Of a DNA stretch of 64,000 nucleotides, positions 50,355-55,282 are shown in pieces. The notes below the pieces were generated by a model that did not search any database, had not been told where the DNA came from, and saw only the letters and a program-made list of their open reading frames with translations. The stretch spans positions 14,621 through 78,620 of the forward strand of contig NZ_KB890619.1 of assembly GCF_000373145.1 (NCBI RefSeq), written 5' to 3'. This stretch comes from Thermus oshimai DSM 12092 (GTDB lineage Bacteria; Deinococcota; Deinococci; Deinococcales; Thermaceae). A program made the translations under genes and the position numbers. Within the stretch, counting starts at the first letter, position 1. Each line of letters starts with the position of its first letter.

Positions 50355-51098
50355 TTAGAGGTTCTGAACCACGATGAAAACCCCCATGACCACCAGGAAG
50401 AGGGCGAAGCCCCGCTTCAGGGCCTCGTGGGGGAGGCGCACCGCAAGCCGCCCCCCGACCAGACTCCCCAAGGTCCCCACGGCGATGAAGAGGAGGGCCA
50501 GGCCCCAGTTCACGGAGAGGCCGTAGGCGGGCAGGAGGTGGAGGTACTTGTAGAAGCCGGCGAAGGACTTGAGCGCGATGATGAAAAGGCTCGTGCCCAC
50601 CGCCAGGTGCATGGGAAGCCCCCCCAGGAGGACCAAAGCGGGGACGATGAGGAACCCGCCCCCCACCCCCACGAAGCCCGTGAGGGCCCCCACGAAAAGC
50701 CCTTCCAGGACCACCTTCCAGGCCTTCCGCTCCCCCTTGGGGGTGAGGGGGACGGGCCGGGCCATGAAGTAGGCGGCGAGGAGCATCACCAGGGCGAAGG
50801 TGAGGAGCTGCACCTCCCCGGAGGTGAACCGGGAAAGCCAGGCCCCCAGGTAGGTGCCCGCCATGCCGGGGAGGCCGAAGAGGAGGAGGCTCCGGTAGTG
50901 GACCAGGCCCCTAAGGGCGTAGGGGAGACCCCCCAGGAGGGCGATCCCCCCCACGATGAGGAGGCTTTCCGCGATGGCCTGCTTGGGTGCTTCCCCCACC
51001 AGGTACACCAGGACGGGCACGGTGAGGATGGACCCCCCGGAGCCCAGAAGGCCCAGGGAGAGCCCGATGAGGAGGGCGCCGAAGAGGGCGAGGCTCAT
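50355..51098 (-). CDS. TauE/SafE-family sulfite/organosulfur exporter
   Basis: The 247-residue membrane protein has about eight hydrophobic segments. The twice-repeated TauE signature appears as [23 protein letters not shown] (about 13-35) and [43 protein letters not shown] (about 135-178). In operons with persulfide dioxygenases and rhodaneses, such proteins are thought to export sulfite or thiosulfate. The ATG overlaps the upstream rhodanese stop. It is last in the three-gene operon. Confidence 0.92.
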
Positions 51099-51754
51099 CG
51101 CTCCACGGGAAGGCCGTGGCTCATCCAGGCGTAGGTGCCGCCCTCGAGGTTATAGACCTTCTCCCCCGCGAACCCCTGCTGCACCAGGAAGTCCGCGGCC
51201 ACCCCCGAGCGGTTCCCGGAGTTGCACACGAGGAGGATGGGCCGGTCCTTGGGCAGTTCGGAGAGGCGCGTGGGCAGGGTGGAGAGGGGGATGTTCACCG
51301 CCCCCGGCACATGCCCCTCCCGGTACTCCCAAGGCTCGCGCACGTCCACCACGAAGGCCTCCTCCAGGAGGGCCTTGGCCTCCTCCGGCCCCACCTCCTG
51401 GAAGGGCACCCCCTGGTAGCCCACCTCCACCGGGGTGGTGTCCACGGGGAGGCCCGTGCGGTACCAGCGCACGATGCCCCCCTCGAGGTTGTAGAGGTTC
51501 TTCCAGCCCTGGGCGGAAAGCCAGGCCACCGCCTGCCAGGAGCGGTTCCCCGTACGGCAGTAGAGGACCACGGGCCCCTCCTTGGGCACCTCGGCGTAGC
51601 GGGCCATGAACTCGGAAAGGGGCAGGAGCCTGGCCCCGGGGATGCGGGCCTGGGCGAACTCCTCCACCTCCCGCACGTCCAGGAAAAGGGCCCCTTCCTC
51701 GTAAAGGGCCTTGGCCTCCTCGGGGGTTAGGTTCTTCACCTCGGTCTCGTACAT
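51095..51754 (-). CDS. Tandem-domain rhodanese sulfurtransferase
   Basis: The 219-residue protein has two rhodanese domains. Domain 1 (about 1-100) has active-site Cys in [13 protein letters not shown]. Domain 2 (about 115-219) has Cys in [13 protein letters not shown]. Both loops are six to seven residues, as in enzymes using thiosulfate or persulfide, so both appear active. I choose the ATG at 51754, behind a GGAGG at 5-nt spacing; the ORF extension upstream begins with TTG. No signal peptide, so it is cytoplasmic. Translationally coupled to the TauE-like exporter. Confidence 0.9.
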
Positions 51755-51772
51755 CGCTTCCTCCAAAACCCC

Positions 51773-51801
51773 CGCCGCAAGGGCACCCCCTTGCGGCGGG
51801 A
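51773..51801 (-). terminator. Intra-operon stem-loop between sulfur genes
   Basis: CCCGCCGCAAGGG and CCTTGCGGCGGG form a long GC-rich stem with a small loop between the persulfide dioxygenase-like and rhodanese genes, just before the latter's ribosome binding site. It may reduce expression of the two downstream genes relative to the first. Confidence 0.6.
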
Positions 51802-51806
51802 TGGGA

Positions 51807-53243
51807 TCAGGCGTTCACCAGGGCCTCGCCCTTCTCCACCGGGAAGCCCAGGGCCTGCCAGGCCCGGATGCCCCCGGTGAGGTTCAGGGCGTTCCTAAAG
51901 CCATGGGCCAGAAGGGCGCTGATGGCGGTGCTGGAGCGGTCGCCCCCCACGCAGTGGACGATGAGGGGCCGGTCCTTGGGAAGCCGGTCCAGATGGGCCA
52001 AAACCCGCCCCGCGTGGAGGTTTAGGGCCCCGGGGATGTGGCCCGAGAGGTACTCGTCCCGGCCGCGCACGTCCAGGACCAGGGCCTGGCCCTTCTCCCA
52101 AAGGGCCTTGGCCTCCTCCGCGGTGATCTGGGGCACGGTCTCCAGCTCCCCTTCCGCGTAGCCCTCGAGGCCCGGGATGTACCCCACCACATGGTCCAGC
52201 CCGATGCGGATGAGGGCCCGCACCAGCCCCTCCACCTCCTCCGGCCGGGCCATGAGGACCAGGGGGCGGTCGTAGGGGAGGAGCCAGCCCGCCCAGGTGG
52301 AGAAGTTCTTGCCCGCGGGGATGTTGATGGCCCCCTTCAGGTGCCCCCCGGCGAAGGCGAACTTGTCCCGGGTGTCCACCAGGATGGCCCCTTCGGCCAG
52401 GGCCTTAGTGAACTGGCTCTTGGTGAGCCGGGCCGGGTGGGGGATACCCCCCAGGATGGGCATCCCGTCCCGGTTCAGGCGCTTCATCTCCTTGAAGTAG
52501 GTGGGGGCCTCGGGCTGGCCCAGGAGGAGGGCCTTCACGAAGCCCTCCTCGTCGTTCCGCTCCAGGTACTCCGCCCACCAGGCGTGCCGCCTCTCGTAGC
52601 CCACGGTGGTGGCGGGAAGGGCCCCGAGGGCCTTCCCGCAGGCCGAGCCCGCCCCGTGGCCGGGCCAGACCTGCACGTGGTCGGGGAGGGTCAGGAACTT
52701 CGCCTTGAGGCTTTGGAACATCCGCCTGGCCCCGGGCTCCGCGGTGCCCTTGAGCCCCGCAGCCTCCTCCAGGAGGTCCGGGCGGCCCACATCCCCCACG
52801 AAGACGAAGTCCCCGGTGAGGAGGAGAAGGGGCTCCTCCGAAACCGCCCCGTCCGCCACCAGGAAGGCGATGTGCTCGGGGGTGTGGCCGGGGGTGTGGA
52901 GGACCTTCACCCGGATGTTCCCCACCTTGAACTCATCCCCGTCCTTCACCAGGACATGGGGGAAACCCTCCAGGCCCCGGTACTTCCAGTTCTCGTCCCC
53001 CTCGTCGGAGAGGTAAAGGGTGGCCCCGGTGGCCCTCGCGAGCTCCCGGGCCCCCGAGAGGTAGTCCGCGTGGATGTGGGTTTCCGCCACCGCGGTGATG
53101 GTGAGGCCCAGGCTCTGGGCCAGGTCCAGGTAGGTGTCGATGTCCCGCTTGGGGTCCACCACCAGGGCCTCCCCGGTGGCGGGGCAGCCCAGGAAGTAGC
53201 TCATCTGGGCGAGGCCTTCCTCGTAGATTTGGCGAAAGATCAT
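51807..53243 (-). CDS. Persulfide dioxygenase-rhodanese fusion (CstB/Blh-like MBL protein)
   Basis: Predicted to oxidise glutathione-like or other low-molecular-weight persulfides to sulfite/thiosulfate. The 478-residue protein starts with an ETHE1-like metallo-beta-lactamase domain (about 1-250) with iron ligands in ETHIHADYLSG, VLHTPGHTPEH, TGDFVFVGDVGRPDL and WPGHGAGSACG. A rhodanese-like domain without catalytic Cys follows (about 270-365, LVLMARPEEVE). A second rhodanese domain has Cys in IVHCVGGDRSSTA (about 425). This MBL-pseudorhodanese-rhodanese order is that of CstB. CGGAGGTG precedes the ATG. Promoter and dyad operator lie upstream. Confidence 0.92.
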   Translation of the reverse strand: MIFRQIYEEGLAQMSYFLGCPATGEALVVDPKRDIDTYLDLAQSLGLTITAVAETHIHADYLSGARELARATGATLYLSDEGDENWKYRGLEGFPHVLVKDGDEFKVGNIRVKVLHTPGHTPEHIAFLVADGAVSEEPLLLLTGDFVFVGDVGRPDLLEEAAGLKGTAEPGARRMFQSLKAKFLTLPDHVQVWPGHGAGSACGKALGALPATTVGYERRHAWWAEYLERNDEEGFVKALLLGQPEAPTYFKEMKRLNRDGMPILGGIPHPARLTKSQFTKALAEGAILVDTRDKFAFAGGHLKGAINIPAGKNFSTWAGWLLPYDRPLVLMARPEEVEGLVRALIRIGLDHVVGYIPGLEGYAEGELETVPQITAEEAKALWEKGQALVLDVRGRDEYLSGHIPGALNLHAGRVLAHLDRLPKDRPLIVHCVGGDRSSTAISALLAHGFRNALNLTGGIRAWQALGFPVEKGEALVNA

Positions 53244-53260
53244 GGCTTCACCTCCGGAAT

Positions 53261-53274
53261 GGGACCTTTGTCCC
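53261..53274 (-). repeat. Short inverted repeat in the 5' leader of the persulfide dioxygenase gene
   Basis: GGGAC-CTTT-GTCCC lies between the predicted transcription start and the Shine-Dalgarno sequence and could form a small hairpin. Its role is unknown. Confidence 0.35.
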
Positions 53275-53281
53275 GGCCTCT

Positions 53282-53311
53282 AAGATACCCTACCGGGGTA
53301 ATGGATGTCAA
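53282..53311 (-). promoter_or_regulatory. Promoter with CsoR/CstR-like operator, persulfide dioxygenase operon
   Basis: Minus-strand TTGACA (53311-53306) and TATCTT (53287-53282) with an 18-nt spacer form the promoter. The dyad TACCC-N5-GGGTA (53286-53300) sits across the spacer and -10 box. Such G/C-tract dyads flanked by TA are typical of CsoR-family repressors, including the persulfide sensor CstR. A bound repressor would block polymerase. Confidence 0.6.
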
Positions 53312-53339
53312 GCCGGAAGGGAAAGTTCATGCCCTCCCA

Positions 53340-53397
53340 TTCCCAATCCCAAGGCCCCATGCTATACTCCATAAAGGATTAGCCCCTACGGGGGTAT
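53340..53397 (+). promoter_or_regulatory. Promoter with CsoR/CstR-like operator, PDO operon
   Basis: TTCCCA (53340-53345) and TATACT (53363-53368) with a 17-nt spacer face the disulfide oxidoreductase gene. Just downstream of the predicted start lies TAGCCCC-TAC-GGGGGTA (53380-53396), a dyad with one mismatch that resembles the site in the divergent promoter 80 nt away. This supports joint control by one CsoR/CstR-like repressor, whose gene is not in the window. Confidence 0.6.
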
Positions 53398-53410
53398 CCG
53401 GGAGGAAAAG

Positions 53411-54100
53411 ATGCCGCTTTTAGGACCCAAAGAGCAGGAGATCGTACGGGAAAGGCTTTCCACCCTGAACCGGGACGTGGAGATGATCCTCTTCACCGAC
53501 ACCTCCACCCTCGTGGCCCCGGGGAAGGAGCCCTGCATGTACTGCCGGGAAACGGAGCAGCTTCTGAGGGAGCTTCAGGCCCTTTCCGATAAGCTCCACC
53601 TGGAGGTCTACGACCTCGCCACCCCTGAAGGGAAGGAAAAGGCCGAGGCCTACAAGGTGGAGGCGGCCCCCACCCTGATCCTCCGGGAGAAGGGCTCGGA
53701 GGCCACCAACCTCCGGTACCGGGGTATCCCCGCGGGCTACGAGTTCGCAAGCCTCCTGGAGGACCTGGAGATGCTGGGCCGGGACGGGCACGGCCTGCCC
53801 GAGAACGTGGTGCAAGAGCTCAACAACCTCCCCGAGGAGGTGGTCCTGCAGGTCTTCGTCACCCCCACCTGCCCCTACTGCCCGCAGGCGGTGCGCACCG
53901 CCCACCGCATGGCCTATGCCTCGCCCAAGGTCTTCGGGGAGATGATCGAGGCCAACGAGTTCCCCGAGCTTTCCAATCGTTACCACATCCACGGGGTGCC
54001 GGACACCATCATCAACCACGGCAAGGCGCGGGTGCTCGGGGCCCAGCCCCTCTCCCAGTTCCTCCAGGCCATCCGCCAGGCCGTGGGGGTGAAGGCCTAG
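53411..54100 (+). CDS. Protein disulfide oxidoreductase (PDO, double glutaredoxin/thioredoxin fold)
   Basis: The 229-residue protein has two thioredoxin-fold units, each with a CxxC centre: CMYC (about residues 38-41) in unit 1 and CPYC (about 154-157) in unit 2. Each has the cis-Pro region downstream (EAAPTLIL; HGVPDTI). This is the PDO arrangement of thermophiles, which handle cytoplasmic disulfides. No signal peptide. GGGAGG precedes the ATG. Co-transcribed with a rhodanese lipoprotein and a TlpA-like protein, under an operator shared with the persulfide genes, so it may reduce protein persulfides or polysulfides. Confidence 0.92.
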   Translation: MPLLGPKEQEIVRERLSTLNRDVEMILFTDTSTLVAPGKEPCMYCRETEQLLRELQALSDKLHLEVYDLATPEGKEKAEAYKVEAAPTLILREKGSEATNLRYRGIPAGYEFASLLEDLEMLGRDGHGLPENVVQELNNLPEEVVLQVFVTPTCPYCPQAVRTAHRMAYASPKVFGEMIEANEFPELSNRYHIHGVPDTIINHGKARVLGAQPLSQFLQAIRQAVGVKA

Positions 54101-54101
54101 C

Positions 54102-54479
54102 ATGACCCGGCGCGCCCTCCTGGGCCTCTTGGCCCTGCCCCTGCTCCTCGCCGCCTGCGGCCCCAAGGGGAGCTACCGGAACATTGGTCCCGAGGAGCTC
54201 TACCAGGCCGCAGCCCAGGGGGCCCTCATCGTGGACGTGCGCACCCCCATGGAGTTCGCCCAGGGGCACGTGCCGGGGGCGGTGAACCTGCCGGTGGAGG
54301 AGGTCGCCCGCTGGGCCAAGGACCTCCCCAAGGACCGGCCCGTCTACCTCTACTGCCGTAGCGGCAACCGGAGCCGGCAGGCGGCGGAGTACCTGGCCCG
54401 GCAGGGGTACGCCAACCTGTACAACCTCGAGGGGGGCGTCCTGGCCATAGAGCGGGCCGGATACCCCCTGGTCCGCTGA
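54102..54479 (+). CDS. Rhodanese-domain lipoprotein
   Basis: The 125-residue protein has a lipoprotein signal (MTRRALLGLLALPLLLAAC, Cys19) and a single rhodanese domain with active-site Cys in VYLYCRSGNRSRQAAEYLARQGY (about residue 80). It would sit on the outer face of the membrane and carry or transfer sulfane sulfur there. It starts 1 nt after the PDO stop, and its own stop TGA overlaps the next ATG. Confidence 0.92.
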   Translation: MTRRALLGLLALPLLLAACGPKGSYRNIGPEELYQAAAQGALIVDVRTPMEFAQGHVPGAVNLPVEEVARWAKDLPKDRPVYLYCRSGNRSRQAAEYLARQGYANLYNLEGGVLAIERAGYPLVR

Positions 54480-55282
54480 TGGACGCCCTCACCCTCGGCC
54501 CCTTGGCCCTCCCCTGGACCCGGGTCCAGGTGGCCTTGGGGCTTCTCGCCTTCCTCCTGGCCGCAGGGGTTTTGGCCAGGCGGGTGGACCCCAGGCTGAA
54601 CGCTTGGGCCTCCAACGCGGTCTTTTGGGGGTTGGTGGGGGCCCGGCTGGGCTTCGTGCTGGAGAACCTTTCCATATACGCCAAGGACCCCCTCTCCGTC
54701 CTCTACGTCTGGCAGGGGGGGTTTGACCCCTGGTGGGGTATCCTGGTGGGAGGAGGGTATACGCTCATGACCCTACCCAAAGCCCTCTTGCGCCCCGCCC
54801 TCCTTTCGGCCCTGGCGGGCGGGGTGGTCTTCCTTTTGGTCCTGGCCCTAAGCCCGGGAAAGCGCGCTTCCGCTGGCACCCTTCCCGACCTAACCCTGGC
54901 CACCCTGGGGGGCACGCCGGTGGACCTCCAGGACTTTCGGGGAAAGCCCCTGGTCCTGAACGCCTGGGCCACCTGGTGCCCCCCCTGCCGCCGGGAGCTC
55001 CCCATGATGCTACGGGTGTCGGAGGAAACCCCTGGGGTGCGCTTCGCCTTCGTGAGCCAGGGGGAGGGCCCGGCGGTGGTGCGGGCCTTTTTGGAGAAGG
55101 AGGGATTGGCGGGGGACTGGTTCCTCCTGGACCCCGAGACCCGGCTTTCCGAGGCCCTCAAGGTGCAGGGCCTGCCCACCACCTTCTTCTTTGACCGGGA
55201 GGGGCGGCTTGTGGCCCGGCACATGGGGGAGCTCTCCGAGGCCCTCCTCAGGGGGTATCTCCGGGTCATCAGCCCGCCTTGA
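54479..55282 (+). CDS. Lgt-like membrane domain fused to TlpA-type thioredoxin
   Basis: The 267-residue protein has an N-terminal membrane part (about 1-125) that resembles the first third of prolipoprotein diacylglyceryl transferase (LGPLALPWTRVQVALG; VFWGLVGARLGFVLENLSIYAKDPLSVLYVWQGGFDPWWG). It lacks the histidine of Lgt's MSFHGG motif and all the C-terminal catalytic regions. The C-terminal domain (about 135-267) is TlpA/ResA-like with WATWCPPCRRELPMM (CxxC near 163-166) and cis-Pro QGLPTTFF. The thioredoxin domain is expected outside the cytoplasm. It probably reduces disulfides or persulfides, perhaps on the rhodanese lipoprotein encoded just upstream. Its 3' end overlaps spoVR by 14 nt. 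Confidence 0.85.
   Translation: MDALTLGPLALPWTRVQVALGLLAFLLAAGVLARRVDPRLNAWASNAVFWGLVGARLGFVLENLSIYAKDPLSVLYVWQGGFDPWWGILVGGGYTLMTLPKALLRPALLSALAGGVVFLLVLALSPGKRASAGTLPDLTLATLGGTPVDLQDFRGKPLVLNAWATWCPPCRRELPMMLRVSEETPGVRFAFVSQGEGPAVVRAFLEKEGLAGDWFLLDPETRLSEALKVQGLPTTFFFDREGRLVARHMGELSEALLRGYLRVISPP

Follow-up and report, generated by a model that had tools for sequence, protein, structure and literature searches.

Predicted control of a divergent persulfide-enzyme locus in Thermus oshimai by a CstR-like repressor acting in trans

How are two divergent operons whose gene content points to sulfane-sulfur metabolism controlled in Thermus, if the regulator expected for them is not encoded beside them? 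The locus lies in the window, by which we mean the whole analysed stretch of 64,000 nucleotides on contig C18 of a Thermus oshimai genome (2.26 Mb, 24 contigs). An earlier note, made from the letters of the window, had proposed that two dyads of the CsoR/CstR-like operator kind link the two operons. Both dyads were found again at 53286-53300 (site 1) and 53380-53396 (site 2), within an intergenic region of 167 bp between the ATG at 53243 (minus strand) and the ATG at 53411 (plus strand). Two divergent promoters lie inside this region; the promoter scan, which covered positions 53200-53450, found these two where 0.2 were expected.

Features of the divergent locus, in coordinates of the window
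Feature	Position	Strand	Details
TauE/SafE-family exporter	50355..51098	-	
Double rhodanese	51095..51766	-	
CstB-like protein, 478 aa	51807..53243	-	metallo-beta-lactamase (persulfide dioxygenase) domain and two rhodanese stretches
Conserved leader element of cstB mRNA, GGGAC-N4-GTCCC	53261..53274	-	26/26 Thermus loci, some with one changed base
CstB-like operon promoter, TTGACA-18-TATCTT	53282..53311	-	10/12; -35 at 53311-53306, -10 at 53287-53282; promoter scan
Site 1, TACCC-N5-GGGTA (TAC-N9-GTA), TACCCTACCGGGGTA	53286..53300		15 bp, type 2 CsoR-family operator form
Match to TTHA1953 SELEX consensus TACNNTACNNNNGTANNGTA	53286..53305	+	11/12 fixed bases; consensus from the available part of PMC10318464
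Disulfide oxidoreductase operon promoter, TTCCCA-17-TATACT	53340..53368	+	extended TG; 9/12; promoter scan
Site 2, TAGCCCCTACGGGGGTA	53380..53396		degenerate copy of conserved 16-bp dyad; also C4/G4 leader hairpin
Protein disulfide oxidoreductase	53411..54100	+	TIGR02187 above cut-off
Rhodanese	54102..54479	+	lipoprotein-like signal (LLAAC, by eye)
TlpA/ResA-like redoxin	54479..55282	+	N-terminal LGT-like membrane part

The gene content agrees with the CstR-type regulons invoked in the earlier note, in that a CstB-like protein, rhodaneses and a TauE exporter are found together. In the CstB-like protein the metallo-beta-lactamase domain precedes the rhodanese domains as in CstB, and by this domain order it is a CstB-like persulfide dioxygenase-sulfurtransferase, with predicted activity. 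The solved relatives 3tp9 and 3r2u match it over nearly the full length, beta-lactamase and rhodanese parts included, which is a match of sequence only. An unexpected pairing was seen in the last gene of the table, where a TlpA/ResA-like redoxin is joined to an LGT-like membrane segment.

In a synteny comparison of nine named Thermus loci (tblastn, at least half of the query covered, flanks of up to 10 kb), the six genes stand in the same divergent order in eight (L103-L106, L108, L109, L130, L132). In the ninth, from T. scotoductus (L121), CstB is shortened, and the same search found neither the rhodanese nor TauE. FtsX and M23, whose genes lie past TauE in the window, were not found near the locus in any of the nine (tblastn, flanks of at most 10 kb). 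The conserved unit thus spans about 4.9 kb (50355-55282), not the nine kilobases first suggested. Among the loci compared from Meiothermus and Calidithermus, the linkage of CstB and the rhodanese persists, mostly with TauE included; a disulfide oxidoreductase was not found near CstB there by tblastn. Shortened versions of cstB were seen in L029 (G010), where residues 1-48 remain and rhodanese pieces follow, and in L121/L027 (T. scotoductus, G017), which keep residues 1-394, and both promoter sites are retained in all of them.

Site 1 fills the 18-nt spacer between the -35 and -10 boxes of the minus-strand cstB promoter and overlaps the -10 box by two bases; the earlier note had placed it over the -10 region. 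Its TAC-N9-GTA with G-tracts is the form of a type 2 CsoR-family operator. All 26 Thermus cstB promoters that could be parsed, out of 27 genomes, contain it exactly, with an invariant TACCC/GGGTA core; the genome without a parsed promoter, G020, is 65% complete and also carries site 1 according to model R1. This model was built from 25 of the Thermus cstB promoters and hence finds those by construction. The site alignments A1 and A2 likewise use 25 of the 26, as G012 (L015), identical in its site sequences to G011, was omitted. Mean column conservation is 0.91 in site 1, 0.96 in site 2, 0.99 in the minus-strand -35 box, 0.92 in the plus-strand -10 box and 0.81 in the cstB leader, and 0.52 in the middle of the intergenic region. 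A dyad scan upstream of cstB took in 45 of 80 loci (9 Thermus, 12 Meiothermus/Calidithermus, 1 Truepera, 23 others). The 15-bp dyad with no or one mismatch is present in all 12 Meiothermus/Calidithermus loci, mostly in two copies, and one dyad lies upstream of cstB in the single Truepera locus scanned; among the 23 others, any dyad of 13-18 bp was seen in three (L136, L139, L182).

Taken alone, neither dyad is significant, since matches within the window are near chance expectation: four for the 15-bp dyad with one mismatch (2.6 expected) and one for site 2's own sequence with up to three mismatches (0.97 expected). The significance of site 1 comes from its exact conservation and from its match to a motif selected in vitro. 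Among 243 other Thermus upstream regions, a background that replaces a count of 60/954 whose set included loci picked for the motif, the site-1 dyad occurs nowhere exactly and six times with one mismatch. These six are one site in three species, counted for both divergent genes: the recurrent dyad TACCCTAAAGGGGTG, which has one mismatch and lies between the same two divergent genes (upstream of L103 690-, L105 1356- and L132 1357-), and which is perhaps a further site.

The motif selected in vitro, TACNNTACNNNNGTANNGTA, is that of TTHA1953, a repressor of sox genes in T. thermophilus HB8 (Barrows and Van Dyke 2023, PMC10318464, here and below for the parts available). With up to two mismatches the pattern matches the window once, at site 1, against 0.13 expected. 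Site 1 is also the only place in its own genome with at most one mismatch (reversed control 0), while the six places with at most two mismatches are hardly above the reversed control (5). Across the genus, at most one mismatch is found at 11 places in 9 of 27 Thermus genomes against three in reversed controls, and none of the other ten places lies at a cstB promoter. Site 1 departs from the motif at 2-6 positions in the 25 other Thermus promoters, which, given the fixed TAC-N9-GTA core, is about what chance would yield at the six remaining positions. Hence conservation is limited to the core and does not extend over the whole SELEX motif, and luck has some part in the 11/12 match in the window. 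To judge from the alignment, the element kept in evolution is TAC-N9-GTA with G-tracts, that is, the type 2 CsoR element, described in the available part of PMC3902906 as TAC-X9-GTA and as needed for binding by S. lividans CsoR. As far as the available text of PMC10318464 goes, the motif is without G-tracts, validated sites have none longer than three, a C4-containing site of TTHA0653/4 was unprotected, and a change of one base in the central spacing caused a 10- to 15-fold loss of binding. Site 1 in the window contains GGGG.

Which protein could act at this site? The window is free of csoR or cstR genes, as had been noted before, and the CsoR-family genes on which control in trans would depend do exist in the genome. 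A profile search with PF02583 found two, L001 and L002, both on contig C2. L001, which matches the profile at 83.5 bits (cut-off 22.8), carries the sought pair of cysteines, Cys39 and Cys68, counted from MTRTT as in the published numbering of TTHA1953, and both are present in 26 of 26 L001 orthologues. Four residues before Cys68 it has a Phe where the sensors 4m1p, 5fmn and 4adz have a His. A histidine at that position is a metal ligand in copper and nickel sensors. With two cysteines and no copper-ligand histidine, L001 is a CstR-like member of the CsoR family. A dnaX-like ORF (named by resemblance) runs into its start, so the gene does not stand beside a target, and autoregulation is not indicated, the best dyad at its locus having two mismatches. 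A TTHA1953 orthologue is present in 26 of 27 Thermus genomes, the lone miss being the 65%-complete assembly; in the wider family, 49 of 50 genomes have an L001 match at E<=1e-10, though the best matches in G029, G030 and G032, only 44-53% identical, may be paralogues. TTHA1953 shares with L001 the two cysteines and a gene far from its targets, and the available part of PMC10318464 describes it as an octamer on DNA whose binding is lowered by disulfide and which NaHS does not release from DNA. Taken together, the site, its conservation, the regulator gene and the shared motif, all of which were read from sequence, lead us to predict that site 1 probably serves as the operator of a CstR-like repressor supplied in trans.

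The case of site 2 is different. It does begin just after the plus-strand -10 box, 11 nt downstream, and ends just before the GGGAGG Shine-Dalgarno. The CsoR-family form claimed for both dyads holds for site 1 and not fully for site 2, which measures 16 bp, is degenerate in this window and can also be read as a leader hairpin. In 25 of 26 Thermus genomes it reads TACCCC-N4-GGGGTA, and only in this window is the left TA changed to AG; the TAG-type left arm described earlier turns out to be a look-alike shifted by 1 bp. Where site 1 has the exact form of the type 2 operators of PMC3902906 (available part), site 2 has one more base between its arms (TAC-N10-GTA, 25 of 26 genomes) and has lost its left TA here. 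An inner TAC-N4-GTA, as in the SELEX motif, was counted by eye in 23 of 26. As a SELEX match site 2 was rejected, agreeing by reading at only 7 of 12 fixed bases (six inner, one outer), and the 16-bp pattern with up to two mismatches was useless genome-wide (297 places per strand, 343 in the reversed control). Model R2, made for site 2, gave 106 matches, 29 of which are site 2 itself (two on the opposite strand, one partial in G020). Three of the 77 matches outside the locus were opened (L280, L281, L282), all in coding sequence by ORF calls, and no match outside the locus was better than E 0.01.

Site 2 might instead form a hairpin (C4-UACG-G4) in the 5′ leader of the mRNA and make it more stable or adjust its translation, with only site 1 binding the repressor, and we give this reading a substantial chance, if somewhat below an even one. 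It fits the place of site 2 between the -10 box and the Shine-Dalgarno, the fold of its RNA (-14 kcal/mol, z -1.7, with 13 of 200 shuffles as good), the length of 16 bp, unlike that of the 15-bp sites, and the lack of strong R2 matches elsewhere; stems ahead of the Shine-Dalgarno are also present in the cstB leader and in most peroxiredoxin leaders, and the changed left arm in the window leaves the C4/G4 stem intact. However, among 17 distinct sequences none of the nine pairs is changed on both sides, in contrast to the stems of the peroxiredoxin leaders, which vary widely in sequence, and the TA ends (25 of 26) and the inner TAC-N4-GTA (23 of 26) are largely kept. The missing compensatory change leans towards recognition of the sequence, although invariant pairs cannot decide. 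Site 2 is thus plausible but not secure as an operator, and we would put its putative role as a site of the CstR-like repressor at an even chance or marginally better. The cstB mRNA has a leader element of its own, GGGAC-N4-GTCCC, 30-31 nt upstream of the start codon, which may be a leader hairpin or the site of another regulator.

A less probable owner of the sites, above all of site 2, is the copper sensor CsoR (TTHA1719 type), in which case the operons would answer to copper; we consider this improbable. Such a gene is present, L002, which adjoins a copZ-like gene and shows the Cys-His-His pattern. The promoter of this copZ-csoR operon holds a different, copper operator, CCCCACCCC-AGGG-GGGGTGGGG, whose CCCCACCCC type is published in PMC10318464 (available part), and which shares with site 2 the C4-N4-G4 core and its spacing, at two mismatches from the 16-bp dyad. 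But the outer CCCCA/TGGGG arms of CCCCACCCC-N4-GGGGTGGGG are absent at both sites in the window, and G005, a draft that is 99% complete and in which the L001 orthologue is the only CsoR-family gene found, still keeps both sites. Furthermore, TtCsoR bound the TTHA1953 consensus little or not at all (PMC10318464, available part), and the gene content speaks of sulfur, not copper. That site 1 merely belongs to the core promoter, or is a GC-rich dyad that arose by chance, is very improbable, for although one-mismatch dyads are common and site 1 abuts the -10 box, it is exact in every parsed spacer, the promoter consensus does not demand CCC/GGG, and no exact copy occurs in the background regions.

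We therefore return to the CstR-like repressor and consider it likely that the TTHA1953 orthologue blocks cstB-rhodanese-tauE at site 1, is released by sulfane sulfur or an oxidant, and probably acts also at site 2 and at a peroxiredoxin and a glutaredoxin gene. Binding, repression, the inducer and the role of site 2 are what we infer here, and the enzyme roles follow from the families. The reduced repressor would sit between -35 and -10, covering the spacer of the cstB promoter. Sulfane sulfur or disulfide stress would link Cys39 to Cys68 of the neighbouring subunit and thereby release the repressor, which would turn on the cstB-rhodanese-tauE genes. CstB would then oxidise persulfide, the rhodaneses would pass sulfur on, and products would exit via TauE, while the divergent operon would handle extracytoplasmic thiols. 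The same repressor would probably act at site 2, just past the start of the disulfide oxidoreductase-rhodanese-TlpA operon, and at the peroxiredoxin and glutaredoxin promoters elsewhere in the genome.

Two-Cys repressors of the CsoR family like L001 are known from the cst operon of S. aureus (CstR, PMC5480029) and, as a CstR-like protein, from Bacillus licheniformis (YrkD, PMC9918477), both cited from the parts available. In a cstR mutant, genes for the persulfide dioxygenase-sulfurtransferase CstB, a sulfurtransferase and TauE are up (PMC5480029). Unlike in the cst system so described, the Thermus regulator lies away from the operon, the two operons hold no sqr, and a divergent disulfide oxidoreductase-rhodanese-TlpA operon is attached. 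In the available part of PMC10318464, TTHA1953 is reported to target sox, a cytochrome of sulfite oxidation and a few other genes, with no CstB-type, rhodanese-TauE, peroxiredoxin or glutaredoxin gene among them, and the protein is set apart from CstR on the ground that rhodaneses, sulfite exporters and genes of sulfide oxidation are under CstR, and sox under TTHA1953. Conserved operators in front of such genes, if true, would close this gap, and would suggest that the signal still missing in vivo is persulfide or polysulfide.

Searches with the SELEX motif and with site 1 led to peroxiredoxin, glutaredoxin and aioBA-like promoters; for site 2 no other promoter copy was seen among the matches opened. 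By ORF calls, the six places in the own genome with at most two SELEX mismatches are all intergenic or at start codons, and belong to cstB, a glutaredoxin, a peroxiredoxin, a histidine-kinase-like gene and two others. The two others are a cytochrome c gene beside a molybdopterin oxidoreductase (resembling TTHA1326) and a gene for a protein without Pfam match in a multicopper-oxidase-like cluster. The peroxiredoxin gene is present in 13 of 27 Thermus genomes, and in 12 of these its promoter contains the 15-bp dyad, exact in 5 and with one mismatch in 7, by eye between -35 and -10; the thirteenth (L295, with an internal stop) has it with two mismatches. At the glutaredoxin gene the dyad lies at one place over the start codon in 23 of 27 genomes (11 exact, 12 with one mismatch), the exceptions being L303, L304 and L308, which have 14-bp variants, and L314. 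As its left arm resembles a -10 box by the start codon, the conservation may have two causes. The aioBA-like promoter, which in G009 matches the SELEX motif perfectly and in G008 has a site-1-type dyad at the aligned place, appears to bridge the SELEX and site-1 forms.

Searching the 27 genomes with R1 gave 98 matches at E<=1, of which 27 are the cstB promoters and about 27 would be expected by chance, the E-values being rough. Ten of the 71 matches outside cstB were placed: four at peroxiredoxin, two at glutaredoxin, one at the aioBA-like operon, one at thioredoxin reductase and two at SELEX-type sites of small secreted proteins. Among the best R1 matches outside cstB are those at peroxiredoxin (G013, E 6.6e-4), the aioBA-like operon (G008, E 0.007), thioredoxin reductase (G021, E 0.03) and the glutaredoxin of the own genome (E 0.07). 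The pattern TACCC-N4-GGGGTA with at most one mismatch occurs at 47 places, against 20 and 24 in reversed controls; the loci opened were L054, L056, L058 and L072, plus the cstB and glutaredoxin sites.

These genes would form a predicted, new target set for a known kind of repressor. No paper that treats genes of persulfide enzymes or peroxiredoxins as targets of TTHA1953 came up in a literature search, whose scope did not include glutaredoxin. More tentatively, one CstR-like repressor might govern a Thermaceae-wide sulfane-sulfur and thiol-redox regulon, with site 2 doubling as operator and leader hairpin, a possibility that we regard as doubtful in this full form. Its members would be CstB-rhodanese-TauE, the divergent relay, the peroxiredoxin, the CGPC glutaredoxin and the known sox genes, and in some species also thioredoxin reductase and the aioBA-like operon. 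Through its predicted peroxiredoxin and glutaredoxin targets the repressor would couple the oxidation of sulfur with thiol defence in a thermophile that branches early.

Some further observations were made along the way. The aioBA-like (Rieske plus molybdopterin) operon, named by resemblance, has a TTHA1953-type site in its promoter in two species (L186 and L251), and in L186 an ArsR-like gene is divergent from it. In several Thermus genomes, SELEX-type sites with no or one mismatch (around 1501-1520) directly precede genes for small secreted proteins (L184, L185, L188, L190, L191, L192); these belong to two families, one of which we take to resemble DUF302. Finally, site-like dyads were seen in a multicopper oxidase/DUF302-like cluster (L035 1501-1520, L072 1501-1515), with the copper csoR gene about 4 kb away.
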